This document shows positions 7,958 through 22,349 of a stretch of DNA of 55,191 bases, piece by piece. The notes under the pieces were generated by a model that was given only the letters and a program-made list of their open reading frames with translations, made no database searches and had not been told where the DNA came from. The DNA lies in contig JAQUOT010000001.1 of NCBI GenBank assembly GCA_028716945.1, positions 347,280-402,470 of the forward strand, written 5' to 3'. This stretch comes from Candidatus Nanoarchaeia archaeon. GTDB lineage: Archaea > Nanobdellota > Nanobdellia > SCGC-AAA011-G17 > JAFCDX01. A program made the position numbers and the translations under genes. Position 1 is the first letter of the stretch. Each line of letters begins with the position of its first letter.

Positions 7958-8539
7958 ATGGCAAGTTCACCATTGGCAGGAGCCATTGAATTTTTTCAAT
8001 CGTTTGGATTATTTGATATATTGCTGCCTTTCTTATTAGTTTTCACAATTGTTTTTGCAATTTTAGAAAAAACAATGATTTTAGGTGCAGAAGATAAGAA
8101 ACCAAAGAAAAATCTTGATTCCATGGTTTCTTTTGTTATCGCTTTATTGGTTATAGCAAGTAATAAAGTAGTTACTGCAATGACAAAAGCCTTACCTAAT
8201 ATAATTTTATTAGTTATTGTTTCAATTAGCTTTTTATTAATGATAGGAGTATTTGCAACTACAGATGAATTTGATTTAAAAAAGAAACATAAAACTTTTT
8301 ATTATATCTTTACAGTAGGTATGTTTGTGGGTGTTATAATAATATTTATGGCTTCAATTTCATCACAATCAGTTTACTGTACATCTGGTCAAGAATGTTC
8401 TTGGTTAGAAATTTCATATAATTATGTTATGAACCATTGGGGGGGTTCTGCAGTTTCAAGTATAGTTTTATTAGCGGTGATTATAGGTGCGATCTTATAT
8501 GTAACTGGATTTAAGACAAATAAAAAAGAGGAAAAATGA
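7958..8539 (+). CDS. Multipass membrane protein, paralogue 1 of 3
   Basis: 193 residues with about five hydrophobic segments. The N terminus FQSFGLFDILLPFLLVFTIVFAILEKT aligns with the next two proteins (YLLPFLLVFSIVFALLEK and YFLPIFTFLFIFAALYALLDK), each followed by a KILG or MILG turn. The three genes overlap or abut (8536, 9068) and form one operon. No known family recognised. The position just before the coiled-coil and ATPase genes suggests a membrane part of the type IV pilus-like machine (inference). Confidence 0.6.
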   Translation: MASSPLAGAIEFFQSFGLFDILLPFLLVFTIVFAILEKTMILGAEDKKPKKNLDSMVSFVIALLVIASNKVVTAMTKALPNIILLVIVSISFLLMIGVFATTDEFDLKKKHKTFYYIFTVGMFVGVIIIFMASISSQSVYCTSGQECSWLEISYNYVMNHWGGSAVSSIVLLAVIIGAILYVTGFKTNKKEEK

Positions 8540-9066
8540 GTGTAGCTTCAACATTTCAATCATTACAGGCAATGGGAGTATATGAATATTTACTTCCTTT
8601 CTTACTAGTATTTTCAATAGTTTTTGCTTTATTAGAAAAATTAAAGATTCTAGGAAAGGATAAAGAAGAGAATCCAAAAACAAATATTAATGTTGTAGTT
8701 TCTTTGGTAATGGGTGCATTATTAATTGCACAACCACAAATAGTTTACCTAATAAATCAATTTTTACCAAAAGTTTCTTTGTTAATTATAGTTGCTTTAA
8801 TGTTTTTAATGGTCGCAGGAATGTTTGGAACGCCTACTGAAGATTGGGGAGGAATAGCTTTGGTTGTTGCTTTAATAATTTCAATACTTGGAATTATATG
8901 GGCATTATCTCCTAGCGCAGGATTATATATGCCAACTTGGTTCCATCCTACTGATGAAGATAAAGCTTGGGTAATTTTAATAGGTACAATTGTAGTTGTA
9001 GTAGCAATGTTTAGTAGAAAAGAAGCAAAGACACCAAAATCTTTGAAAGATTATATATTCAAATAA
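8536..9066 (+). CDS. Multipass membrane protein, paralogue 2 of 3
   Basis: 176 residues, starting with ATGA overlap on the previous stop (translational coupling). It shares the MGVYEYLLPFLLVFSIVFALLEKLKILG block with its neighbours. Hydrophobic segments lie at about 15-35, 55-75, 80-100, 110-130 and 148-166, and the C terminus is Lys-rich. Confidence 0.6.
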   Translation: MSVASTFQSLQAMGVYEYLLPFLLVFSIVFALLEKLKILGKDKEENPKTNINVVVSLVMGALLIAQPQIVYLINQFLPKVSLLIIVALMFLMVAGMFGTPTEDWGGIALVVALIISILGIIWALSPSAGLYMPTWFHPTDEDKAWVILIGTIVVVVAMFSRKEAKTPKSLKDYIFK

Positions 9067-9067
9067 A

Positions 9068-9595
9068 ATGGCAACTTTAATGGATATGGGTTTGTTAAAT
9101 TATTTTTTACCAATTTTTACTTTCTTATTTATTTTTGCGGCATTATACGCTTTATTAGATAAAACAAAAATTCTTGGAGATAATAGTGCATTAAAATTTA
9201 TAGCAGCATTTTCTGTTGCTATGATAACTTTATTTACAGCTTCAATTACCGATTTAATTAATTATGTTATTCCTTGGTTTGTTTTTATTGCAATATTTTT
9301 AATTTTATTATTTGGAGTATTGATGCACTTTGGAATAAAAGAAGAAAATATTTGGAATAATCTAAGTATGTGGACAGTAATGATAATCGCATTTTTAATT
9401 TTATTAATCGGATTAACTCAAGTATTTGGAGATGTATTTACTCCTTACCAAACCGTAGGAAATACAACCAAAACAATTAGTTCTGAAACTTTAAGAACCT
9501 TATTTCATCCAAGAACTTTAGGAGCTATATTCATGTTAATAATCGCTTCATTAACTGTTAGATTTGTAGGTCACCAAGTTGGTGGAAGTAAATAA
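9068..9595 (+). CDS. Multipass membrane protein, paralogue 3 of 3
   Basis: 175 residues, starting one base after the previous stop. MGLLNYFLPIFTFLFIFAALYALLDKTKILG matches the paralogue block, and about five membrane helices are predicted. It closes the three-gene operon and converges on the coiled-coil genes of the opposite strand. Confidence 0.6.
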   Translation: MATLMDMGLLNYFLPIFTFLFIFAALYALLDKTKILGDNSALKFIAAFSVAMITLFTASITDLINYVIPWFVFIAIFLILLFGVLMHFGIKEENIWNNLSMWTVMIIAFLILLIGLTQVFGDVFTPYQTVGNTTKTISSETLRTLFHPRTLGAIFMLIIASLTVRFVGHQVGGSK

Positions 9596-9598
9596 AAA

Positions 9599-10171
9599 TT
9601 ATCTTTTTTTCTTTAAATCTTCTGTTATTTTGTTTAATTCTCTAATATTTGTTGCTAAAGGCTGCATTATTCTTTCTAGAACTTTTTCAAGAGCTTTCAT
9701 CTCTGCTCCAACATTTGTCATAGTTTGATGATAATCTTCTATTTTACCAATAACTGCATTTTGTAAATTTCCAAATCTCTCTTCAATTCTTATTACTTCT
9801 TGTTTTATTGATCTTATATCGGTATTAATTTTTTCTCTCCATATTGCGATATTTCCAACATTGGTCATTAATTCTTCCCATTTTTCATTAACTACTGCTT
9901 CTGTTATTTCTTCTATTTGTTCTTGGAAATCTCTTCTTGGTTGTTCTGTCATTGGAACTGAAGTAGCAGGTATCAAAGGAGTATTTGGAATATCTTCCAT
10001 AGGTTCTTCAGAGGATTCTTCTGGTATTTCTGGTTCAGCAGAAGGAGCTTCTTCCATTGCTTGTGTTGCAATTTCTTCTTTAGGTAACATAGAAGGTTGC
10101 ATTCCACTAATTCCTGGATTATCAGAATTTCTTGCTACACCTTCTTTTATATCTCTAAAATCGTTTGCCAT
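9599..10171 (-). CDS. Coiled-coil protein with acidic Pro-rich N terminus
   Basis: 190 residues. Residues 1-80 are low-complexity, acidic and Pro-rich (EEIATQAMEEAPSAEPEIPEE). Residues about 85-190 form a long coiled coil with EKWEELMTNVGNIAIWREKI. The W-based entry into the coil and the context recall archaellum accessory FlaC/FlaD-type proteins that sit beside the FlaI ATPase, but similarity is too weak for a firm call. It is in one operon with the next coiled-coil gene, opposite in direction to the ATPase gene. Confidence 0.55.
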   Translation of the reverse strand: MANDFRDIKEGVARNSDNPGISGMQPSMLPKEEIATQAMEEAPSAEPEIPEESSEEPMEDIPNTPLIPATSVPMTEQPRRDFQEQIEEITEAVVNEKWEELMTNVGNIAIWREKINTDIRSIKQEVIRIEERFGNLQNAVIGKIEDYHQTMTNVGAEMKALEKVLERIMQPLATNIRELNKITEDLKKKR

Positions 10172-10174
10172 TAT

Positions 10175-10525
10175 TTACCTCTTTTCTTTTACCAGCTTTA
10201 TAACCTCTGCTTCGGTTACAAATTTCATAGGGTCCCACAACTTAATATACTTTTCTAAAATTAATAAATTTTCCTTTCTAGCAAAATTTTCCATCTCTTT
10301 TATGAAATGTCTCATCATTTCTTTATTATTAGATAATTCTTCTTTTAAATCCCTTAAATCGGTATTTATAATCTTTATTTCTTGTATAATTCTTTTATAC
10401 TCTTCTAGCATATTTTGATTAACGACTAGCAATTTCTCTCTTAAAATGTTCTGCTTTTCTTCAAGAACTCTTATTCTAGCATTTAAATCTGCTAGAACGT
10501 TTTCAGCTGTTGTCACCTCAGGCAT
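10175..10525 (-). CDS. Coiled-coil protein (116 aa)
   Basis: Helical throughout (VLADLNARIRVLEEKQNILREKL; DLRDLKEELSNNKEMMRHFI). The last residues, KYIKLWDPMKFVTEAEVIKL, contain a WDPMKFVTEAEV motif suited to a docking tail. It is the first gene of a two-gene minus-strand operon, three bases from the next start. It may be a cytoplasmic accessory of the adjacent ATPase (inference). Confidence 0.55.
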   Translation of the reverse strand: MPEVTTAENVLADLNARIRVLEEKQNILREKLLVVNQNMLEEYKRIIQEIKIINTDLRDLKEELSNNKEMMRHFIKEMENFARKENLLILEKYIKLWDPMKFVTEAEVIKLVKEKR

Positions 10526-10589: not shown

Positions 10590-12905
10590 ATGTATAAAAT
10601 GTTATTTAGCAAGAAAACAAAGCCAGGTGATTACGAAGTAATAAAAGAAGGTAATGAAGAAATTATGTGGATGAATTATAATAATTATTCATTCTCTCCT
10701 TCAATTGAAGATAGCGATATTTGTATGTCCAAAACAATAGAATATTTAATACAAAATCCAAGTGTACATAAAATTGTTTTTTCTCAGTATGGTAAAAATT
10801 ATGAATATAGTTTTGATAACACTTCGATGTTGATAGAAATAGCAAACATACACAATTATTTTTTAAAACAGAAAAAAATTTTATCTTTGGGTGCAATGGG
10901 AACAAGTTTAGAATGTACTACTTGTTTGCCCGAAAGATTATCTCAAGTTCAATACATAATTCTTAATTTGTTAAGATCAGACCCAATTGGAGCTTACGTA
11001 GAATTGAAAAGATTAGTTAGAGAAGAAACAATTTTACAGGGAAAAACTACAATACCTAAATGTTCAGAATGCAGACAACATTATATTAATTTATTGAGTT
11101 TAGTAAAAAACTTTTTAGACCAAACAAAATTAATTGCTATGGCAAAACCATATATTGATGGTTATCAAATTGGAACAAGGGAAGTCTACAGAAAAATTTT
11201 CAGAGCAGTAATAACTCCAGATTTTATGTATACTAGATTAATGGCAGATCCTCCTCTAAATGGAGAAGAGATAGATGCTTATTCGATTGATGCAAAAACA
11301 AATGTAACTATTTTTAGAACTCCCGGAGATATAAAATTATTATATCACCTAGAACCTCCTGAATTTAAAATTTCTGAAGATAAATATATGTTATTAACTT
11401 TAGCAAAATCTGTTTTATCAGAACACAAACCAAAAGCAGAAGAGTTCGTAGATCCAGAAAGAATAAGAAGAACTTTTTTTAATATAGGAAAAGATTTGCT
11501 TACTGAATTAGCAACCCATAGAGGTATAGAAATTTCTTATAACGAAATAGAAGAGTTAGCAGATATCTTAGTTAGATATACTGTTGGTTTTGGATTAATT
11601 GAAATTTTATTAAATGATAAAAAAGTACAAGATATTTCTATAAATGGTCCTATAGGACAAACTCCAATATTTTTAGTACATGCGGATTATGATGAATGTG
11701 TTACAAATATTTATCCAAGCTTAGATGATGGAGAAGGATGGGCAACCAAATTTAGATTATTATCCGGAAGACCTTTAGACGAAGCAAATCCTGTTTTAGA
11801 TACAGAATTAACTCTTCCAAATTCAAGAAACAGAGTAGCAATAATCACTAGACCATTAAATCCCAGCGGTTTGGCTTTTTCATTAAGAAGACACAGAGAC
11901 AAACCTTGGACTTTGCCCTTATACATTGAGAATAGAATGTTGTCTCCTTTAGCAGCTGGTTTAATTAGTTTTTTAATTGATGGAGCAAGAACAATGATTG
12001 TTGCAGGTACAAGAGGTTCTGGTAAAACCAGTTTCTTAGATTCTTGTTTGTTAGAAATAATGAGAAAGTTTAGAATAATTACTGTTGAAGATACCTTCGA
12101 ATTAAGTACAGATAAACTTCGTGATCTTGGTTATAATATTCAACCTATGAAAGTAAGAGCTGCTTTAATGGGAAAATCTTCTGAAATTGCAGCAGACGAA
12201 GGCATAAGAACTTCATTAAGAATGGGAGATTCTTCTTTAATAGTTGGAGAAATTAGAAGCACAGAAGCTTTAGCTTTGTACGAAGCAATGCGTGTCGGTG
12301 CTCTTGCTAATGTAGTAGCAGGAACAATTCATGGAGATAGTCCTTATGGTGTTTTTGATAGAGTTGTAAATGATTTAAAAGTTCCTAGAACAAGTTTCAA
12401 AGCTACAGATATAATAGTTATTTGTAACCCAATAAGGAGTCCAGATGGAATGCATAAATGGAGAAGAATAACTCAAATTACTGAAGTAAGAAAAGAATGG
12501 GAAGAGGACCCTTTAAAAGAAAATGGTTTTGTAGATTTAATGAAATATGATTCAAAAACAGATTCTCTACAACCAACTGATGCTTTAATTAATGGGGAAT
12601 CAGATGTTATAAAAAGTATAGCCGGAAATATAAAAGAATGGGCAGGAAATTGGGATGCAGTATGGAATAATATCCTATTAAGAGCAAAATTAAAAGAGAC
12701 TTTAGTTAAATATTCTAAAATGACTAACATGCCAGAATTATTAGAATCAGAAACAGTTGTTTTATTTAATGACATATTTCATAAAGTTTCTGGTGATGTA
12801 AAGACAGAAACAGGAAAATTAGATAATAAAAAAATATTTTTTAGATGGGAAGACGAATTGAAAAAGTATATTAAACAAAAAACATTTGAAAAATCTAGAA
12901 TATAA
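10590..12905 (+). CDS. Type II/IV secretion (TadA/FlaI/GspE-like) ATPase
   Basis: 771 residues. The N-terminal third is lineage-specific and contains CTTC and CSEC pairs that may bind zinc. The T2SSE domain occupies about 290-640: Walker A GTRGSGKTS near 475, Walker B-type SLIVGEIRSTEA near 550, then the histidine box GTIHGDSPYGVFDRVV. It powers assembly of archaeal type IV pili or archaella by driving conformational change in the TadC/FlaJ platform, encoded next. TATA AGTATATAAAC lies 25 nt before ATG 10590 (leaderless). Confidence 0.88.
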   Translation: MYKMLFSKKTKPGDYEVIKEGNEEIMWMNYNNYSFSPSIEDSDICMSKTIEYLIQNPSVHKIVFSQYGKNYEYSFDNTSMLIEIANIHNYFLKQKKILSLGAMGTSLECTTCLPERLSQVQYIILNLLRSDPIGAYVELKRLVREETILQGKTTIPKCSECRQHYINLLSLVKNFLDQTKLIAMAKPYIDGYQIGTREVYRKIFRAVITPDFMYTRLMADPPLNGEEIDAYSIDAKTNVTIFRTPGDIKLLYHLEPPEFKISEDKYMLLTLAKSVLSEHKPKAEEFVDPERIRRTFFNIGKDLLTELATHRGIEISYNEIEELADILVRYTVGFGLIEILLNDKKVQDISINGPIGQTPIFLVHADYDECVTNIYPSLDDGEGWATKFRLLSGRPLDEANPVLDTELTLPNSRNRVAIITRPLNPSGLAFSLRRHRDKPWTLPLYIENRMLSPLAAGLISFLIDGARTMIVAGTRGSGKTSFLDSCLLEIMRKFRIITVEDTFELSTDKLRDLGYNIQPMKVRAALMGKSSEIAADEGIRTSLRMGDSSLIVGEIRSTEALALYEAMRVGALANVVAGTIHGDSPYGVFDRVVNDLKVPRTSFKATDIIVICNPIRSPDGMHKWRRITQITEVRKEWEEDPLKENGFVDLMKYDSKTDSLQPTDALINGESDVIKSIAGNIKEWAGNWDAVWNNILLRAKLKETLVKYSKMTNMPELLESETVVLFNDIFHKVSGDVKTETGKLDNKKIFFRWEDELKKYIKQKTFEKSRI

Positions 12906-12919: not shown

Positions 12920-15139
12920 GCTGATAAAGAAACAGAAAAGATTATTGCAAGATATGAAGAATTATTAAAAGGAAAAATAGAAACAGAAGACGTTGATACT
13001 CCTATAAAATTTTCTCATGAATATGAAGAGTTTAGGGCAGAGTTAATGCCAAAAACTTCTTCTAGATATGAATCTTTGTGTAATCTTGCAGAAAAAATAA
13101 TTACAATAAAACCAAATGAAAATACCAGACCAAAATTAGAAAAAGCAATAGAAATAACTCACTTAGACATAAGTCCAAACGGTGCAACAAGCTTAGCTGT
13201 TTTAGCTGCTATATTTTTAGTATTAATTGCAATTCTGCTTTCGGCTGGTTCTTATTTGTTATCTACTCCAGAACAAGGAGCTGTTAATACTGAAACAAGT
13301 TTAAATGAACAAGGCACTGGAACACCAATGTTATTTTTTCCATTGATATTAATTATACTTGCTGCAGTTATTTTAAAACCATTATCAAATGCCCCAATTT
13401 ATTTTGCAAATAAATGGCGTTTGAAAGCTAGCAATCAGATGGTTCTTTGCGTTTTATATATTGTTATGTATATGCGTCATACCTCAAATTTAGAGCACGC
13501 AATTAAATTTGCAACAGAGCACATTGGTCCCCCATTATCTTTAGATTTTAGAAAAGTTTTTTGGGATATAGAAACAGGGAAATATTCTACAATAAAAGAA
13601 TCTTTAAATGCTTATTTGGAAAATTGGAGAGATTATAATTTAGAATTTGTAAATTCTTTTCATTTGATTGAATCTTCTTTGTTAGAACCTTCTGAAGAAA
13701 GAAGAATACAATTGCTCGATAAAGCACTTGATGTTATGTTAACTGGAACATATGAAAAAATGTTGCATTATGCTCAAGAATTAAAAAATCCAATTACAAT
13801 GTTACATATGCTTGGAGTAATATTGCCTATCTTGGGATTAATCATATTTCCTTTAGTTTCTTCTTTTATGGGAGGATTAGTTAAATGGTATCATCTGGCA
13901 TTGCTTTATGATGTTATTTTACCTTTAGCAGTATTTACTTTTGGTTATGATGTTCTTAGTAAAAGACCTACAGGTTATGGAGAATCTTCAATAGAACAAG
14001 ATATGTTGAAAGAAAAAAAATCAAAATTCTTTCCAGCAATTGTAATAATCTTATTCTGTTTTGTAGGATTATCCCCTTTATTTTTACATGCAGCTTACCC
14101 AAATCAAGATTATCAATTTTATAAATTTGGAAATTTTTCAGATTTTAGATGTGATAAAATAGTTGAATCAGGAAAAACAACAACTGAATGTATTGGTCCA
14201 TTTGGTTTAGGAGCAGTATTATTAAGTTTATTTTTCCCATTGGGTTTGGCTTTAGGTTTATCAATTTATTATAAAGGAATGGCCAAAGATTTAGTTAAAA
14301 TGAGAGAAGAAACAAAATCTCTTGAAAAAGAATTTGCTTCTTCATTATTCCAATTAGGTAATAGACTTGAAGATGGTATCCCCGCAGAATTAGCAGTAGG
14401 TACGGTTGCACAAAATATGTCTAGTACTCCTACTGGAGATTTTTTCAGAATAGTTAGCGTTAATATAAGAAACTTAGGAATGAATTTAAAAGAAGCAATT
14501 TTCAATGAAAAAACAGGAGCAATTTTATCTTATCCTTCAACATTAGTTCAATCTTCTATGGAGGTTTTATTAGAAAGCGTTAAAAAAGGCCCAAGAGTTG
14601 CTGCAAGATCTTTGATTAGCATTTCAAATTACGTTGATGAAATTCACAGAGTAAATGAAAGATTAAAAGATTTATTAACAGAAATAGTTTCTTCTATGAA
14701 ATCTCAAATTTCTTTTATGGCTCCAGTTATAGCAGGAATTGTTGTTGGAATTGGATCTATGATTAGTGGGATAATTGCTAATATGTCAACATTATTTGGA
14801 AATATTAGTTCCAACGCAGGAGAAGGAGCAACTATTGGAGGAAATATTATGGCTGCAGCAAATTTATTTAAAGTTAAAGATATAATCCCCTCCTTTTATT
14901 TCCAACTCGTTGTAGGTGTTTATGTTGTAGAAATTATTTATATTTTAACAATACTAGCAAATGGTATAGAAAATGGTCCAGATAAATTAAATGAAAAATA
15001 TTTACTTGGTAAAAATTTATTTAGGGGAGCAATGTTATACTTTATATTGGCTTTTGTGGTAATCTTCTTATTTAATTTATTAGCTTCAACAATCTTAGGT
15101 AGCTCAAACTTAACTTCTGGATTGTCTTCTGGAGGTTAA
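12917..15139 (+). CDS. TadC/FlaJ-like type IV pilus platform protein
   Basis: About 740 residues if translation begins at ATA 12917, or 697 from ATG 13046. The 43 codons in between are open and protein-like (ADKETEKIIARYEELLKGK), and a Shine-Dalgarno precedes the ATA. The protein has two T2SSF-type cytoplasmic regions (about 145-260 and 430-590 from the ATG) framed by roughly nine membrane helices. This is the polytopic platform that works with the secretion ATPase. It follows the ATPase by 11 nt in the same operon. The length and duplicated F domain are typical of archaeal FlaJ/TadC fusions. Confidence 0.82.
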   Translation: MADKETEKIIARYEELLKGKIETEDVDTPIKFSHEYEEFRAELMPKTSSRYESLCNLAEKIITIKPNENTRPKLEKAIEITHLDISPNGATSLAVLAAIFLVLIAILLSAGSYLLSTPEQGAVNTETSLNEQGTGTPMLFFPLILIILAAVILKPLSNAPIYFANKWRLKASNQMVLCVLYIVMYMRHTSNLEHAIKFATEHIGPPLSLDFRKVFWDIETGKYSTIKESLNAYLENWRDYNLEFVNSFHLIESSLLEPSEERRIQLLDKALDVMLTGTYEKMLHYAQELKNPITMLHMLGVILPILGLIIFPLVSSFMGGLVKWYHLALLYDVILPLAVFTFGYDVLSKRPTGYGESSIEQDMLKEKKSKFFPAIVIILFCFVGLSPLFLHAAYPNQDYQFYKFGNFSDFRCDKIVESGKTTTECIGPFGLGAVLLSLFFPLGLALGLSIYYKGMAKDLVKMREETKSLEKEFASSLFQLGNRLEDGIPAELAVGTVAQNMSSTPTGDFFRIVSVNIRNLGMNLKEAIFNEKTGAILSYPSTLVQSSMEVLLESVKKGPRVAARSLISISNYVDEIHRVNERLKDLLTEIVSSMKSQISFMAPVIAGIVVGIGSMISGIIANMSTLFGNISSNAGEGATIGGNIMAAANLFKVKDIIPSFYFQLVVGVYVVEIIYILTILANGIENGPDKLNEKYLLGKNLFRGAMLYFILAFVVIFLFNLLASTILGSSNLTSGLSSGG

Positions 15140-15173: not shown

Positions 15174-15299
15174 ATGGAAATAGAATCAAAACAACTTAAA
15201 ACAATAGGATTTTTAATTTTATTACTAATTATAATTTATTTTCTCTATCGTATTATAAGATATACAATTCTTGGGGGGATTTTTGGTGCAATCGCGTAA
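15174..15299 (+). CDS. Small single-pass membrane protein (41 aa)
   Basis: ATG 15174 to TAA 15297-15299. MEIESKQLKTIGFLILLLII starts a membrane span that runs on into IYFLYR. It overlaps the start of the next gene by 14 nt. TATA TTATATATT near 15146-15155 would make it the first cistron after the platform gene with a near-leaderless transcript. Function unknown; probably part of the pilus machine. Confidence 0.5.
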   Translation: MEIESKQLKTIGFLILLLIIIYFLYRIIRYTILGGIFGAIA

Positions 15300-16098
15300 A
15301 GGAATAGAAACTTTGACTGTAATACTAATTATATTTTTATTAAGTATGGTTTTATTATCTTATGTTACATATAAATTCATAGAACAAGGAGAAGGAATAG
15401 CAAGTACTGCTACATGTAGAACAAGCGTAGAATTAAAAGCCAAAGCAAAATTAGGTGGATTAGGTCAATTATTGGGAGTAGATATTCCATTAAATTGTCC
15501 AGCCAGTTACCTTCTCATTGAAAATAAAAAAGATGCTAAAGAACAAATTGCTGAAGAAATGTATGACTGTTATTATAAATATGGTGAAGGAAAAATAGAT
15601 TTTATGGATGATTATTCTTTTTCAGGAAAAGAAATACAGTGTTTTCTTTGTTCAAAAATAACTTTTAAAAAAGAAGAATTTAAGGATCAAGAAATAACTG
15701 ATTTCGGAAAATATTTTTTGGAAGAGGGATATGCTCAAGATATGTATAATATACAAAATGAAGCAGGAATAACTAAAGCCGGGCTAAATTCAATTCCAAC
15801 AAAAAATCCAATTTATTTATTATTTGTTGCAGATAAAAGAAAAAATGTTTTGGAAACTTTGAAGACAAATGAGAATGTTTTTTTATCTGGTTGTTTGGGT
15901 GGAACTATAATTGGTGGAGAAATAGGATCAGCTTTTGCGATAGTTGGAGCAGTGCCTGGAGCAATAGGAGGATGTTTTGCTGGGGGTGTAGCATATTCTG
16001 CAGCTTTATTAACAAGTTATACTTCCTATACATATTGGACAGATTCAGAAGATTTAGTAAATTTATGTAGCGGAAAAGATACGGAGAAAAATAAATAA
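15286..16098 (+). CDS. Pilin-leader protein with Gly-rich hydrophobic C terminus
   Basis: Start chosen at GTG 15286, because a GGGGGGAT tract lies six bases upstream and MQSRKGIETLTVILIIFLLS then forms a prepilin-type leader (basic tip, KG, Glu at +5 region, hydrophobic stretch). 270 residues; the exposed part has Cys pairs (CYYKYG, CFLCSK). A second hydrophobic Gly/Ala-rich segment near the C terminus (GAVPGAIGGCFAGGVAYSAALL) could insert in membrane. It belongs to the run of pilin-like genes that follows the ATPase and platform. Confidence 0.6.
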   Translation: MQSRKGIETLTVILIIFLLSMVLLSYVTYKFIEQGEGIASTATCRTSVELKAKAKLGGLGQLLGVDIPLNCPASYLLIENKKDAKEQIAEEMYDCYYKYGEGKIDFMDDYSFSGKEIQCFLCSKITFKKEEFKDQEITDFGKYFLEEGYAQDMYNIQNEAGITKAGLNSIPTKNPIYLLFVADKRKNVLETLKTNENVFLSGCLGGTIIGGEIGSAFAIVGAVPGAIGGCFAGGVAYSAALLTSYTSYTYWTDSEDLVNLCSGKDTEKNK

Positions 16099-16254: not shown

Positions 16255-16914
16255 ATGACAGAAGAATTAGGATTAACTAGATTAATTGAAATTGTATTAG
16301 TCATAGCCGTAATAATAGTTGGATTTTTATTATTAACCTTCGGATATCAACCCTTAGTAAAAGCAATTTATAATTTTATAGATATAGATACTGGACAAAA
16401 CCAAGAACAAGTTGTAAGTGCTTTTACTAGTTTACAAGTAAACTATGATACCTGTTTTGCTTCACAAAAAAAAGAATGTCTTTGTAATTTTGATATACCT
16501 TTATTTCCCAAGGATTATAGAATTATAATAAATAAAAGGATAATAAGCTTAGAGAAAAGAAATAAAGAAGATTTATCTATTTGGGATCAATTAGAAAGTA
16601 CTCAACCCATAAAAAATAAATTTATTAATAAAAATATGGATTGCTACCTTAATTCTTGGAATCAAGATGAAAAAGGAACAACACAAGATTTTAGTTATCC
16701 TGCAATTATTTCTTATATAGGAACAGCTTCGTTAGAAATTCAAGAAAGTCCAAAGTTAATTACTAAATACTCTTTTATCCAAGACCATCCATTATTATAT
16801 AAAAAGGATGAAAATACTATATGTTTTGTTATAGATAAGCCACAATCTGGAAAATCTATATTAAATGATGAAGCAAGGGCTTTAATTACCACTTCCGGAT
16901 TTGATAGATGTTAA
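16255..16914 (+). CDS. Membrane-tethered secreted protein (219 aa)
   Basis: Short N terminus, membrane helix about 10-34 (IEIVLVIAVIIVGFLLLTFGY), then an exposed domain of about 180 residues with several Cys (CFASQKKECLC). It lacks the basic KG leader tip of its neighbours, so it may be anchored rather than processed by a prepilin peptidase. Part of the pilin-like operon. Confidence 0.6.
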   Translation: MTEELGLTRLIEIVLVIAVIIVGFLLLTFGYQPLVKAIYNFIDIDTGQNQEQVVSAFTSLQVNYDTCFASQKKECLCNFDIPLFPKDYRIIINKRIISLEKRNKEDLSIWDQLESTQPIKNKFINKNMDCYLNSWNQDEKGTTQDFSYPAIISYIGTASLEIQESPKLITKYSFIQDHPLLYKKDENTICFVIDKPQSGKSILNDEARALITTSGFDRC

Positions 16915-16961: not shown

Positions 16962-17321
16962 ATGAAAAATAAGAGAGGACAAGGAATTTCTATGGATGTT
17001 ATAATTATTACTATAATTGTAGTTATAGTTTTAGTTATAGTTGCAATCTTTTTTACAGGAGGAATGGCAAGTTTAACTGCTAAAATAAAGTCTTTATTTG
17101 GTAGTCAATTAACAGATCTTCCAGAAGCAACAACTAGATGTACTAATTATTGTACACAATATGAAATGAGCCCAGTAATCCAATACAGAGATAATTTCTG
17201 TACTCAAACCTTCAATGTTGACCTAAATGGTAATGGAAATATTGGGGCGGATGAAAAAGGATTAACTTGTAAAAAATTAGGAATGAGCTGTCCGGTAATA
17301 GAATCAGAAGGGGCTTGTTAA
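16962..17321 (+). CDS. Cys-rich pilin-like protein (KRGQ leader)
   Basis: 119 residues. MKNKRGQGISMDVIIITIIV and onward is a class III signal peptide: basic tip, KRG|Q processing site, then about 20 hydrophobic residues. The exposed domain has seven Cys (CTNYC, CTQ, CKK, CP, C-terminal GAC) and NLNGNGNIGADEKG-like Asp/Asn/Gly loops that could bind calcium. AGGTGATTAA before ATG and a TATA box near 16927-16937 suggest an internal promoter. Confidence 0.65.
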   Translation: MKNKRGQGISMDVIIITIIVVIVLVIVAIFFTGGMASLTAKIKSLFGSQLTDLPEATTRCTNYCTQYEMSPVIQYRDNFCTQTFNVDLNGNGNIGADEKGLTCKKLGMSCPVIESEGAC

Positions 17322-17339: not shown

Positions 17340-17516
17340 ATGAATAAAAAAGCGCAGGAATTACCAATTAAAACTATAATTGTTTTAATTCTTGCTCTAA
17401 TAGTTTTTATTGTTTTAATTATACTCTTTGGTGGAGGATCTTCTAAAATAATATCAAAAATTTTAGGTATAATAAGTGATACCATTGGTACGGCCGGAGC
17501 AATGCCAAAGGCATAA
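17340..17516 (+). CDS. Small pilin-like protein (58 aa)
   Basis: ATG 17340 to TAA 17514-17516. MNKKAQELPIKTIIVLILAL continues as a hydrophobic helix, with NKKAQE fitting the prepilin leader pattern. A Gly/Ser turn and short amphipathic tail follow. It ends one base before the start of the murein hydrolase gene, so the two are probably co-translated. Confidence 0.6.
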   Translation: MNKKAQELPIKTIIVLILALIVFIVLIILFGGGSSKIISKILGIISDTIGTAGAMPKA

Positions 17517-17517
17517 A

Positions 17518-19158
17518 ATGAAAAAAGGTGAAATTTGGACTTTAGAAAATTTAGCATACTTGATTTTGGGTGCGGCAATTACTTTTGCCCTTATTAAGTT
17601 TATTCTTATGCTCCTTAATATTCTTACGCCTGTTCCTGCTTGTATGGATTTACAATCAACAAGTTCTTTAGATAATTTTTTGCAATCTGTAAAAGATACT
17701 AGTACTGGATCTTCTGTAATTGCTTTCGGTAAGAAACAATGTATTTTTGTAGGATTTAACAAAGAAAATCCAAGTTTAACAATAACTTATCCAGATATCA
17801 AATCTTCAGAAATTTCTGGAAAATCAAAAGTATGTATTTGTCAACTTTCTCGTACAAAAGAAGGAATTTCTTGTACAAATAATATTTATTGTGGGAAAGA
17901 AGAGCTTGATGATGTTTTATCAAATGTTAATGAAGTAAAGTTTGCTTATTCAGAAAAACCCTTTTTTACTACAGATAAAGACGAGTCTTTTAAAACAATT
18001 TATTTTAAAAAGGAAGCAGGACTTTTAATAGTTTCTGAAAAAGAATTAGATACAGAATTACAAAATGTAGATGAAGAAAATCTAAATACCATAACCGCTC
18101 CAACACAATATGAATCATTTATACAAGCAGCCCACAATCAATATCCTAATGTTCCGGTAGGTTTGATAAAAGGAATAATAAAAAAAGAATCTGATTATGT
18201 CCCAGATGTTGTTTCTAGTTCTGGAGCAGTAGGTTTGATGCAATTAAAATCGGGAACTGCAAGGGACCAAGGATTAAATGTTCCTGAATATGCTCCAGGA
18301 AACTGTGTAAATACAGTAGATACTTGTAGTACTTTAACTGATGAAAGATTTGATCCAGAAAAAAATATTTTGGGAGGAACAAAATATCTGAGTTTCTTAT
18401 TAAAAAAATATGGAGATATAGAATTAGCTATAGCTGCTTATAATGCTGGTCCTGGAACTGTAGATGCAGCTAAAGGAATTCCAAATACACAAACCCAAGA
18501 TTATGTTTCTAAAACATTACTTTATAAAAGCGAATATGAAACCCAACAAGTTCCTACTGAAGTTTTTGAATCTACACCTACCAATTGTGAAAAAATAGAA
18601 CCTCTTTTAGGAAGAACAATTTCTTTAAATACAAATTATTATGACAGACCAGAAATTAAAAGAGGAGCATATAGATGTAAAAACCAAGTTAATCTAATAG
18701 TTTTACATCATACTGGAGGATATTCTTTTAAAGACACATATAACAGTTTTGTATCAACTGGTTTATCTGTGCATTATGTTATTGATAAAGATGGAATTAT
18801 TTATTATTTAGTTCCAGAGAACCAAGTAGCAAATCATGCTAAAAATTACAATACTCGTTCAATAGGTATAGAAATAGTAAATAGCGGATATGCAAAAGAT
18901 CAATATACCGAAGCACAATATAATTCTATTAATGCATTAATTAATGATATAACCTCTAGATATGGTTTCCCTAAAGATAATGTACATATCAAAGCTCATT
19001 ATCAAATCTCTTCTATTGGAAAATGGGATCCTTCTCCAAACTTTTCTTGGGCAAAAATTGGATTACCAAACCACCAAACTTATGTAGCAATGGTCAGTAG
19101 TTGTGGTGGTATGGGTACTTGGGGTTATAATTGTAATCAATTAACTAATATTGCTTAA
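17518..19158 (+). CDS. Pilin-leader murein hydrolase: lytic transglycosylase plus Amidase_2
   Basis: 546 residues from ATG 17518. Residues 1-45 (MKKGEIWTLENLAYLILGAA...) are a pilin-type leader and membrane helix. About 200-345 is a soluble-lytic-transglycosylase domain: catalytic Glu224 in IIKKESDY, SSSGAVGLMQL, and AYNAGPG. About 375-525 is an N-acetylmuramoyl-L-alanine amidase (Amidase_2/PGRP fold): VLHHTGG (His397), AHYQIS (His494) and WDPSPNF (Asp504) supply the zinc ligands, with Tyr/Glu-rich GIEIVNSG between. Both domains cleave bacterial peptidoglycan, at glycan and stem-peptide bonds respectively. The host lineage should have no murein, so the substrate is presumably another cell's wall. 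It is embedded in the pilus-like operon. Confidence 0.88.
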   Translation: MKKGEIWTLENLAYLILGAAITFALIKFILMLLNILTPVPACMDLQSTSSLDNFLQSVKDTSTGSSVIAFGKKQCIFVGFNKENPSLTITYPDIKSSEISGKSKVCICQLSRTKEGISCTNNIYCGKEELDDVLSNVNEVKFAYSEKPFFTTDKDESFKTIYFKKEAGLLIVSEKELDTELQNVDEENLNTITAPTQYESFIQAAHNQYPNVPVGLIKGIIKKESDYVPDVVSSSGAVGLMQLKSGTARDQGLNVPEYAPGNCVNTVDTCSTLTDERFDPEKNILGGTKYLSFLLKKYGDIELAIAAYNAGPGTVDAAKGIPNTQTQDYVSKTLLYKSEYETQQVPTEVFESTPTNCEKIEPLLGRTISLNTNYYDRPEIKRGAYRCKNQVNLIVLHHTGGYSFKDTYNSFVSTGLSVHYVIDKDGIIYYLVPENQVANHAKNYNTRSIGIEIVNSGYAKDQYTEAQYNSINALINDITSRYGFPKDNVHIKAHYQISSIGKWDPSPNFSWAKIGLPNHQTYVAMVSSCGGMGTWGYNCNQLTNIA

Positions 19159-19195: not shown

Positions 19196-19651
19196 ATGAA
19201 TAAAAGAGGTACTGAAGAATTACAGTATATTTGGTTATCTTATATTTTTCTTGCACTCATAGTAGTATTAACTTTTTCAAGTTTAGTAATTAAAGTAAGG
19301 GATGATAAATTATTTGAACAAAAATCGTTGGCAATGGATTCTTCTTTTATGATAGATGCAATTTCTGCAAGCCCATATGATATTAATGCGAAAGTTACTT
19401 TTGAAAAAGAGGGTTATACTATCTCTTTTAAAAAACCTTGTTCAGTAGAAACTTATTTAGAAAAAGAAGAATCTTATTCAAGAGTCCCTTCGAAATATAA
19501 TTGTTATTCTAATTTAAATTTCGATGAAAAGATATCAAAAACACCTATAGTAGAATTCAAAAAAGAAAAGGGCGAGATTATAATTATTTCTCCAACTAGT
19601 TCAGTTGAAGGAGGAGAATTTAGTGGAGCAGGAGCAACTAGAGGTTATTAA
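19196..19651 (+). CDS. Pilin-like protein (NKRG leader)
   Basis: Start set at ATG 19196: a TATA-like CATTATAAATTAAA (19167-19180) is about 23 nt upstream and MNKRGTEELQYIWLSYIFLA forms the leader. 151 residues with one N-terminal helix, then an exposed beta-rich domain with two Cys and an acidic Gly-rich tail. The internal promoter suggests that downstream pilins can be expressed separately from the hydrolase. Confidence 0.6.
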   Translation: MNKRGTEELQYIWLSYIFLALIVVLTFSSLVIKVRDDKLFEQKSLAMDSSFMIDAISASPYDINAKVTFEKEGYTISFKKPCSVETYLEKEESYSRVPSKYNCYSNLNFDEKISKTPIVEFKKEKGEIIIISPTSSVEGGEFSGAGATRGY

Positions 19652-19652
19652 C

Positions 19653-20132
19653 ATGAACAAAAAAGCAGCTTTTCTTAGTATGGAATTGCCAGTTTGGTTT
19701 TTTAACTTGTTTGTTTTAATAGTAATTGTTGTTATATTTGCAATTGTAGTTTCTTCTTTTTTAGCTAGAGAAGTTGACACTTCTAAATACGAATCTTTAT
19801 TAATTTTAAATAATATCCATTCTTGTTTATCTTACACAGATGAAAGAACAGATTTTGGTGTTATAGATATAAATAAATTTACAAATTTAAATTCTTGTTT
19901 GAATATAAAAGATATACAATATAACTTAATTTTAGAAGATTTGGATGGTAACAATTTGGGGAATTTTTATTCTGATAAAACACAATTTGAATTAAATTGG
20001 CCTTTAAGAGATGTAAATTTAGAAAATCAAGAATATAGATTCTCTTCTGGGAAAGATTACACTATAATAAATAAAGAAGGGAAAAACCAAGGAGCAATAT
20101 TAACTTATAATTTTATAATAAAAAATGTTTAA
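19653..20132 (+). CDS. Pilin-like protein (NKKA leader)
   Basis: Start set at ATG 19653, one base after the previous stop; MNKKAAFLSMELPVWFFNLF gives the leader, continuing into LIVIVVIFAIVVSSF. 159 residues with two Cys in the exposed domain. It overlaps the next gene by 8 nt. Confidence 0.6.
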   Translation: MNKKAAFLSMELPVWFFNLFVLIVIVVIFAIVVSSFLAREVDTSKYESLLILNNIHSCLSYTDERTDFGVIDINKFTNLNSCLNIKDIQYNLILEDLDGNNLGNFYSDKTQFELNWPLRDVNLENQEYRFSSGKDYTIINKEGKNQGAILTYNFIIKNV

Positions 20133-20622
20133 ACAAACTGGAAAAAAAGGAATAGGTATGCTTTTGTATAATGCTGCCTCTGTAGTTTTAATCCTTTTGG
20201 CATTAGCTTTATTCGTATTTTTATCATTTTTTGCAGGCTCTGTTAATCAAAAACTTTTAGACAAAAGTGAAATAGAAGTAAATACCATTTTATTGAATTA
20301 TTTAAGAACTCCAGTAACTGTTGATGAACAAGAAATTTTAGTTTCAGATTTGATAAGATTGTATGTTAAAAACAAAGAAGAATATAAACCTGCTTTAGAT
20401 GAGATAAACAAAAAAACATTAAAAATTATATTTAAACAGTATAAATTATCTATAAATGGAGAAGTAATTTCTAGCGGAATTGCAATGAGCGAAGATTTTG
20501 AAAGTGGCGCTGTTTTGCAAGAGATGGATGCTGCCGCTTCTACAGTAGTTGAAACAACTTCTTCAGAATTTAATTTACCTGGATTTGATAAAGATATAAA
20601 AATAAGGTTGGTGGTAGAATGA
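20125..20622 (+). CDS. Pilin-like protein (KKGIG leader)
   Basis: 165 residues. MFKQTGKKGIGMLLYNAASV and a long hydrophobic run form the leader and helix; the exposed domain is charged and mostly helical without Cys. It overlaps both neighbours by a few bases (translational coupling). Confidence 0.6.
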   Translation: MFKQTGKKGIGMLLYNAASVVLILLALALFVFLSFFAGSVNQKLLDKSEIEVNTILLNYLRTPVTVDEQEILVSDLIRLYVKNKEEYKPALDEINKKTLKIIFKQYKLSINGEVISSGIAMSEDFESGAVLQEMDAAASTVVETTSSEFNLPGFDKDIKIRLVVE

Positions 20623-21350
20623 ATAAAAAAGGAATATTTTTACCTTTAATGGCGATAATGACTTTGATTTTTTCAGGAATATTTATTGGAATATTTTATT
20701 TTCAAATATTAAAAGATAGGTCAGAAAATGTAGGAGAACATGCTAGTAATCTAATAAATTTTTATACTCAACAAGAAATGTTTGCTTTTTCAATACAAGA
20801 AAGTGCAAAACTTGCTGCTTGTGATACTTTACAAACAACTTTTAAAAAAGGTTTATTAAAAACTGAAAGTTGCTTTTTAAACACTTATGCAGTCTGGGAT
20901 TTTAAATTATCCGATTGTAATCCAGATCCTGCCTTCGAATCTTCTGATTTTAAAGAAGAATTTGAAAAGAAATTTAAAGAGAGAACAACTCTTGTTTACA
21001 AAAATATAAATTATGAATTTAGAAACAAAATTAAAATAAAAGCCACTACAGACCCACTGCTTTTAGAAAAAGTAACAGGAAAATTAGATATAGACTATAA
21101 ATTAAACATAAATTTTAATCAAGAATTAAACGTAGATGTAACAAAAATACAAGGAATAATAAATGAGGCAAATAATCTCAATACCTGTTTATTATCTCAA
21201 TCTTTTGAAGTATGTTCTAAGAGTAGTAACTTAGAATGTATAAAAAGCGATAGTTTAATAAAGTGCAATGTACAAAATATTAAAAATCCATGTACTAACG
21301 AGGATATTGCATTTAAATTTGCATTGAAATCAAATTCAAATGTTGCTTAG
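20619..21350 (+). CDS. Pilin-like protein (NKKGI leader)
   Basis: 243 residues. MNKKGIFLPLMAIMTLIFSG and onward is the leader; the exposed domain has about nine Cys (CDTLQTT, ESCFLN, CNPDP, TCLLSQ, EVCSKSS, LECIKSD, KCNVQN, PCTN), so disulfides are likely. It is the last member of the pilin-like run, followed 12 nt later by the RPA-like gene. Confidence 0.6.
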   Translation: MNKKGIFLPLMAIMTLIFSGIFIGIFYFQILKDRSENVGEHASNLINFYTQQEMFAFSIQESAKLAACDTLQTTFKKGLLKTESCFLNTYAVWDFKLSDCNPDPAFESSDFKEEFEKKFKERTTLVYKNINYEFRNKIKIKATTDPLLLEKVTGKLDIDYKLNINFNQELNVDVTKIQGIINEANNLNTCLLSQSFEVCSKSSNLECIKSDSLIKCNVQNIKNPCTNEDIAFKFALKSNSNVA

Positions 21351-21362
21351 GGGGTAAAAAAG

Positions 21363-22349
21363 TTGTTGAATTTAAGTTATGAACAAATAATTTCTACTAT
21401 TTTAGAAAATACAACTATAACAAAAGAGGAATTACAAGATAGAATCAATGCAAAATTAAAAGAGCTTTCTAATTTAATAAGCAAGGAAGGAGCAGCGCAT
21501 ATCATTGCAAATGAATTAAATGTTAAATTATTAGATGTTCCTAAGGTTTTGAAGATAAAAGATGTCTTGCCTGGAATGAGATTAATTAATATGACTGGAA
21601 AAGTCATTAATTTTTATGGGGTTAGAGAATTTAATAAAGATGGAAGAAAAGCAAGACTAGCTACAATGCTTATTGGAGATGAAACAGCAACAACAAGATT
21701 GGTTATTTGGGATGAAGTTATAATAAATGAAATTTTAAAAGAAAATTTGAAAGAAAATGATATAATAAAATTACGTGGAGCTTCTTGTAGAGAAAATCAA
21801 GGATATAAAGAATTACATTTAGCTAGTAAAGCTCAACTATCAATAAATCCAGAAGGAGAAACCATATCAAATGTTCTCGTAAAACCAACTTTAATAAGAA
21901 AGAAGATATCTGAATTACAAGAAAATGATTATGCAGAAGTTCTTGGAACAATTGTACAAATGTTTGAGCCAAGATTTTTTGAAGTTTGTCCTTTATGTGG
22001 TGCTAGAGTAAGAATTGAAGATGGAGTTTTCGCTTGCAAAGAGCACAGTATAGTAGAGCCAAAACTAATTCCTTTTGTAAATTTCTTTTTTGATGATGGT
22101 TCAGCAAATATTCGTGTTGTTGCTTTTAGAAATCAAGCAGAATTAATTTTGGAAAGAAATGAAACAGAATTAGTAGAAATGAAAAATAATCTTGAAAAAT
22201 TTGAAGAATTAAAAAGTTCTGTCTTAGGTAAACAATTTTTATTAAAAGGGAAAGTTAATAGAAACGAAATGATGAATAGATTAGAATTTGCTGCAAATGA
22301 AGCAGAGTCAGTAGATTATACAAAATTAGCAGAAGTGTTATTAAAATGA
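21363..22349 (+). CDS. RPA-like single-stranded DNA-binding protein (OB folds and zinc finger)
   Basis: 328 residues with TTG start 21363 after a GGGGGT ribosome site. It has two OB-fold regions (about 65-170: GMRLINMTGKVINFYGVREF; about 175-290) and a zinc finger with CPLCG, then ACKEH, inside the second. This is the layout of archaeal replication protein A, which coats ssDNA in replication and repair. It is encoded directly after the pilin cluster, which is probably chance, and overlaps the following gene as ATGATG. Confidence 0.82.
   Translation: MLNLSYEQIISTILENTTITKEELQDRINAKLKELSNLISKEGAAHIIANELNVKLLDVPKVLKIKDVLPGMRLINMTGKVINFYGVREFNKDGRKARLATMLIGDETATTRLVIWDEVIINEILKENLKENDIIKLRGASCRENQGYKELHLASKAQLSINPEGETISNVLVKPTLIRKKISELQENDYAEVLGTIVQMFEPRFFEVCPLCGARVRIEDGVFACKEHSIVEPKLIPFVNFFFDDGSANIRVVAFRNQAELILERNETELVEMKNNLEKFEELKSSVLGKQFLLKGKVNRNEMMNRLEFAANEAESVDYTKLAEVLLK

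Follow-up and report, generated by a model that had tools for sequence, protein, structure and literature searches.

The pilin-hydrolase fusion and its operon

The window, i.e., the whole 55,191-nucleotide stretch analyzed here, sits in a 536-kb contig of an 804-kb DPANN genome that is 97.6% complete. On its + strand lies a run of genes comprising an ATPase, a TadC-like protein, at least eight prepilin-like ORFs and an RPA-like OB-fold gene (Table 1), and the gene studied here is one of this run. Its ATG sits 1 nt past the 58-aa ORF before it, its reading frame is uninterrupted to the stop, and the next gene begins 37 nt after the stop. A GTG at 17476, called as the start by a mechanical caller, was rejected because it would overlap the 58-aa pilin-like ORF; raw Pfam coordinates were counted from this GTG and are shifted by +14.

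Table 1. Features of the pilus gene run and of the fusion protein, in positions of the window.
Feature	Position	Strand	Evidence or remark
Secretion/pilus ATPase (TadA/FlaI-like)	10590..12905	+	PF00437 (T2SSE); NCBIfam FlaI and TadA matches below cut-off
TadC-like membrane platform protein	13046..15139	+	Homologue in 362/371 phylum genomes; no Pfam match
Pilin-like slot o15271	15271..16098	+	N-terminal leader and helix; syntenic
Pilin-like slot o16255	16255..16914	+	Relatives' version bears SLT, SLT+Amidase_3 or M23
Pilin-like subunit (pilA type)	16962..17321	+	MKNKRGQGISMDVIIITIIVV; syntenic
Pilin-like subunit, 58 aa	17340..17516	+	MNKKAQELPIKTIIVLILALIV
Fusion protein (pilin-like N-terminus + SLT + Amidase_2), 546 aa	17518..19158	+	ORF, Pfam, PDB sequence relatives
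Prepilin-type leader MKKG	17518..17529	+	Sequence; predicted cleavage after Gly4; K/R-G/A pattern shared with most adjacent ORFs and slot homologues
Hydrophobic N-terminal helix, residues 9-36	17542..17625	+	Model; block pLDDT 96-97 over most, about 85 at end
Pilin-slot head domain, residues 37-190, conserved, with conserved cysteine pattern	17626..18087	+	Alignment of 26 slot homologues
SLT lytic transglycosylase domain, residues 207-325	18136..18492	+	PF01464, E 5e-26
Catalytic Glu224 codon	18187..18189	+	Aligns with catalytic Glu of SLT
Amidase_2 domain, residues 389-507	18682..19038	+	PF01510, E 5e-30
Zinc ligand His397	18706..18708	+	Conserved in 7/7 covered pilin-fused amidases
Zinc ligand His494	18997..18999	+	Conserved in 7/7 covered pilin-fused amidases
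Zinc ligand Asp504	19027..19029	+	Conserved in 7/7 covered pilin-fused amidases
Pilin-like subunit (pil19196)	19196..19651	+	ORF, synteny
Pilin-like subunit (pil19653)	19653..20132	+	ORF, synteny
Pilin-like subunit (pil20125)	20125..20622	+	ORF, synteny
Pilin-like slot pil20619	20619..21350	+	Slot most often bearing murein hydrolases in relatives
RPA-like OB-fold protein, conserved 3' boundary of pilin cluster	21363..22349	+	PF08646/PF01336; homologue in 359/371 genomes

The ATPase reached 111.7 bits with the TadA model TIGR03819, whose curated cut-off is 373, and 118.7 bits with the archaellum FlaI model (cut-off 550). As both scores lie below the curated cut-offs, the machine is described as Tad/archaellum-like and is not filed as Tad. 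The genome also encodes a prepilin peptidase of the family PF01478, while a search of it for the family PF06847 gave no match. Upstream of the ATPase (7958–9595 and 9599–10525), three small multi-helix membrane proteins were observed, together with two coiled-coil proteins on the opposite strand. Synteny with the sister genus G290 extends to the three small membrane proteins and to the longer of the two coiled-coil proteins; a convincing family match is absent, and they are possibly unrecognised pilus components. At the other end of the cluster, the RPA-like OB-fold gene, whose product is of a single-strand-binding type, keeps its place on the 3' side throughout the phylum.

The fusion protein begins with MKKG followed by EIWTLENLAYLILGAAITFALIKF, that is, with a leader and then a helix. 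Sequence, structural model and slot alignment agree on a class III (prepilin) leader, which the preliminary description of this DNA had proposed, and on an N-terminal hydrophobic helix; the leader pattern is also found in most neighbours and slot homologues. In the model of residues 1–190 (mean pLDDT 83), a long helix leads into a head made of a further helix and strands. Foldseek retrieved no PDB fold match for this model, and the label "pilin-like" therefore rests on the leader, the helix, the operon and the mutual homology of the slot proteins.

Behind the head, Pfam recognizes SLT and Amidase_2 only, each far over its cut-off, and no cell-wall-binding domain. A lytic transglycosylase domain with Glu224 and an Amidase_2 domain with a complete zinc site had been named in the preliminary description; both were recovered, and all four residue numbers proved exact. 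Alignment places the AmpD-type residues Glu452 and Lys502 in the Amidase_2 domain as well. The sequence relatives in the PDB are AmpDh2, AmpD, Slt70, lytic transglycosylase C and T7 lysozyme, and the full-length model, with a mean pLDDT of 72 and values mostly of 74–98 in the catalytic domains, has fold matches to Slt, Slt70, MltC, MltF, AmpD and endolysin/phage amidases. By fold, profile and catalytic Glu, the SLT domain is assigned to the GH23/SLT family and is predicted to cleave the murein glycan. Profile and His-His-Asp zinc triad mark the Amidase_2 domain as an AmpD-type N-acetylmuramoyl-L-alanine amidase, likewise with predicted activity. The joining of the two domains at 17518–19158 is not a product of chance.

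The producing genome and the pilin slot in its relatives

Archaea had been described as murein-free, and this genome agrees for two marker families: PBP transpeptidase and MurJ were not found in it, while bacterial controls scored. The producer thus appears to make no murein, so the substrate of the hydrolases should be foreign and a role on a wall of its own is unlikely. A second SLT gene in the same genome, encoding 278 aa (L036:8786-9622; G000:C1:433127-433510), is not linked to the pilus operon.

The operon is shared with the sister genus G290 nearly gene by gene, and at the level of the order the arrangement TadA-TadC-o15271-(pilA)-o16255-pilA-pilA-[fusion-protein slot]-pil19196-pil19653-pil20125-pil20619-OB recurs in dozens of genomes. 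Proteins homologous to the first 190 residues of the fusion protein form a slot family, usually of about 160–230 aa and enzyme-free, whose members all show the leader, a single helix and a head that contains cysteines. The fusion itself is patchy, and most genomes of the phylum carry the enzyme-free version of the slot. SLT+Amidase_2 occurs on this slot in G033 (truncated at the contig end), SLT in G225, G155 and G317, and an M23 domain in G290. Other pilin slots in the phylum carry SLT, Amidase_2, Amidase_3, NlpC/P60, M23 and VgrG3-like passengers. The search for the same fusion beside TadA/TadC genes in DPANN genomes, suggested in the preliminary description, was thus positive and far broader in its yield than proposed.

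Predicted wall-cutting passengers across the phylum

When the whole fusion protein was used as a query, matches were obtained in 91 of 371 phylum genomes. Linkage was examined in loci of up to 20 kb around the 40 best SLT/amidase matches outside those already retrieved. These matches were ranked by similarity to the fusion protein, almost always via the enzyme domains, so that pilus linkage was not the selection criterion. At no fewer than 13 of the 40 loci the N-terminus fits the pilin slot profile, which would have a chance of 4e-8 if pilin clusters cover 5% of a genome; 12 of these 13 (the exception is L145) hold further pilin-like ORFs, and many also hold the OB gene. Double fusions among the selected loci are SLT+NlpC/P60 (L124) and SLT+Amidase_3 (L145). 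At L114 (8122-9243 and 9078-12545), a pilin+M23 ORF overlaps an SLT ORF in a different frame, for which a frameshift or two genes are possible.

A sample of passengers not selected for hydrolases was drawn from 80 loci picked by TadC or OB alone (the class-level OB sample being 20 loci), and 99 distinct pilin-slot proteins of at least 280 aa were scanned with Pfam. The passengers were M23 (seven), SLT (four), Amidase_2 and Amidase_3 (two each) and, once each, NlpC/P60, a T6SS VgrG3-like C-terminal domain, M15 and VanY. Murein-cleaving families thus make up 8 of the 12 Pfam families matched, and the remaining four consist of CARDB on one protein and of three VWA models that overlap on a single other protein. 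Judged by their profiles, the recognisable passengers on pilin slots belong almost all to murein-acting families. Among about 50 sampled loci that contain a sizeable portion of the pilin cluster, a murein-type passenger was individually located in 13; the checked catalytic motifs are intact in seven of these, and an eighth, L252, bears NlpC and VgrG3-like domains. The protein in question (L252:13834-18273) is a pilin-slot protein of 1,480 aa that combines NlpC/P60 with the T6SS VgrG3-like C-terminal domain, a module of bacterial contact weapons.

Alignment shows the catalytic Glu in 14 of 15 pilin-fused SLT domains and in all 35 other SLT matches; at L145 the position is Thr. The zinc triad is kept in 7/7 covered pilin-fused amidases, the amidase of L127 being covered in part. 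The full HxxxD...HxH pattern was found in two of eight M23 passengers checked (L239 and L248), and the M23 domain of G290 is among the incomplete ones. Since the M23 passengers mostly lack part of the catalytic motif, some of them may bind rather than cut.

In the SLT tree, which is weakly resolved, the pilin-fused domains are interspersed with archaeal domains that have no such fusion, and they stand apart from the sampled bacterial ones. Parsimony gives 10 changes on this tree, of which the well-supported branches force only two. What shows repeated grafting is the variety of enzyme families that occur on one and the same slot, and the SLT tree is not its basis. A contig scan for SLT returned mainly bacterial domains and a few from named Woesearchaeota, the genome of the window possibly lying outside the scan.

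Predicted role and related systems

We consider it probable that the fusion is an archaeal modular minor pilin, which shows murein hydrolases on a type IV filament and thereby opens bacterial walls. This reading is based on the domains, the catalytic residues, the operon, the recurrence, the prepilin peptidase family and the two absent wall-synthesis marker families; from these we infer leader processing, incorporation into the filament, location at the tip, activity and a bacterial target. Counting against it are the want of a recognisable wall-binding domain and of a PDB match for the head, the incomplete motifs of most M23 passengers and the patchy distribution of the fusion. The fusion prepilin would be inserted in the membrane and its leader cut by the prepilin peptidase, after which the pilin would be built into the filament, probably at its tip, by the power of the adjacent TadA/TadC-like machine. 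The bulky C-terminal SLT and amidase domains would thus be displayed outside the cell, where the lytic transglycosylase would cut the glycan and the amidase the stem-peptide attachment in the murein of a neighbouring bacterium. In this way the small DPANN cell might breach a bacterium or fasten onto it, be it host, prey or competitor, and other lineages of the phylum would have grafted different murein-cleaving domains onto the same or adjoining slots. The purpose may be predation, host entry, attachment or competition. The preliminary description had a similar reading, of which the anchor, the domains, the operon, syntenic across the phylum, and the archaeal origin are supported, while the attack on bacteria is kept here as a prediction.

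Bacterial DNA misbinned with an archaeon would also place such a gene here, as the catalytic domains come from bacterial families and a few SLT matches in the phylum (L038, L039 and L050) are lipoprotein- or Tat-like and possible contaminants themselves. For 17518–19158, contamination is ruled out by a gene order common to many genomes of the phylum, by an N-terminus homologous to archaeal slot proteins and by the 536-kb contig, so that hardly any weight is left to it. In the genes around the locus, no hallmark of a virus came to notice. It is very improbable, too, that the hydrolases reshape a surface glycan of the archaeon itself to let the pilus pass. Bacterial secretion machines do employ lytic transglycosylases on their own wall, and the gene lies within a pilus operon; yet the two wall-synthesis markers are absent, most relatives have the operon free of enzymes, and amidase and endopeptidase passengers require stem peptides. 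VirB1-type specialised lytic transglycosylases, for instance, are separate proteins encoded with a bacterial secretion or pilus machine, and they open the producer's own murein. The archaeal protein is likewise encoded with a machine, but it is a pilin fusion.

More serious, though still unlikely, is a secretion of the pseudopilus type, in which the pilin part would anchor the enzyme at the membrane or on a short pseudopilus and the hydrolase, released or surface-bound, would scavenge murein fragments as food without penetrating live bacteria. The type IV filament superfamily, to which the machine belongs, includes secreting members; scavenging is the presumed way of life behind small DPANN genomes; and the same phylum has large Sec-type SLT proteins lacking pilin parts. 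A covalent pilin anchor, however, would leave the enzyme attached to the cell or its filament, an arrangement better suited to contact than to diffusible digestion. Somewhat less probable than this is a role as an adhesin, whose domains would chiefly hold on to murein or a related glycan and so fasten the archaeon to a bacterium, with catalysis secondary or lost. The incomplete M23 passengers, the VWA and CARDB passengers and the Thr of the L145 SLT domain would fit this, and the modules of bacterial modular pilins are mostly binding ones (PMC8179133). The retention of catalytic residues in nearly all SLT and Amidase_2 fusions speaks against it, and the double catalytic fusions SLT+Amidase_2, SLT+Amidase_3 and SLT+NlpC/P60 point to cutting.

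The modular minor pilin favoured here resembles the type IV pilins PilB and PilC of Streptococcus sanguinis, in which a foreign module stands C-terminal to the pilin part in a widespread cut-and-paste design (PMC8179133, PMC10191384). The known bacterial modules differ, having proteins or carbohydrates as their binding partners or being predicted peptidases of the S74/M26 kinds; the survey of modular pilins used a bacterial pilin motif, and archaea, amidase and hydrolase are absent from its main text (PMC8179133). The Kil/Tad predation pilus of Myxococcus xanthus, with its exchangeable Tip complexes, shares a Tad-like machine and several minor pilins with extra domains (PMC8460266, PMC12075869), and bacterial minor pilins bearing extra domains form pilus tips (PMC12075869). 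Its variable tips, its KilLMN proteins and its contact-dependent attack on bacteria are compared with the archaeal pilus by analogy only. It differs in being bacterial, and its described tip module has no known fold, in a paper silent on peptidoglycan and hydrolases.

The predicted use of murein hydrolases outside the archaeal cell is shared with the archaeal peptidoglycan hydrolases of Strock et al. (2025), which are prominent in Nanoarchaeota and two of which were shown to kill a bacterium (PMC12352652). That survey required a cell-wall-binding domain in addition to a catalytic one, a definition from which the fusion protein departs for want of the former, so pilin-anchored enzymes of this kind would escape it. 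It considered Sec/Tat signals, found a signal peptide in only 32% of the surveyed hydrolases, considered contractile injection systems and never mentioned pili (PMC12352652). The fam00969 proteins of Pacearchaeota and Woesearchaeota also bring a lytic transglycosylase domain into small DPANN genomes, with a proposed tie to bacterial hosts or prey, but they are described as very large and extracellular, and a pilus link is mentioned in neither report (PMC8204110, PMC9723730). Their published description is fitted by SLT proteins of 2,000–3,400 aa in the phylum (L117, L119, L129, L130, L133 and L136), which have no pilin N-terminus and lie away from the pilus clusters.

Bacteria-killing murein hydrolases of archaea (PMC12352652), transglycosylases of Woesearchaeota and Pacearchaeota (PMC8204110, PMC9723730) and modular pilins and predation pili of bacteria (PMC8179133, PMC12075869) are therefore known, and their combination, in which a modular pilin of an archaeon has a murein hydrolase as its passenger, is a candidate novelty. 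No published account of an archaeal pilin with a murein hydrolase was found by a search that left most subscription literature and preprints outside. The pilin fusion would provide a concrete route for the export and display of archaeal murein hydrolases, and it suggests that uncultivated DPANN archaea have bacteria for partners or victims. Cultivated DPANN are all reported to need archaeal hosts (PMC11291902). More tentatively, as a possibility that we would not yet call probable, the phylum-wide pilus with exchangeable hydrolase-bearing minor pilins may be a contact machine for opening bacterial walls; it would then be the archaeal counterpart of the predation pili of Myxococcus and Bdellovibrio, serving as a weapon against bacteria or for host entry, and its owners would live on bacteria and not only on archaea.

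The pilus slots offer a search handle for more anti-bacterial passengers in the phylum. Among the long pilin-slot proteins, those at L245:11588-14137, L055:6034-9126 and L243:16671-18374 (568–1,031 aa) have no Pfam match and are candidates for passengers of unknown kind.
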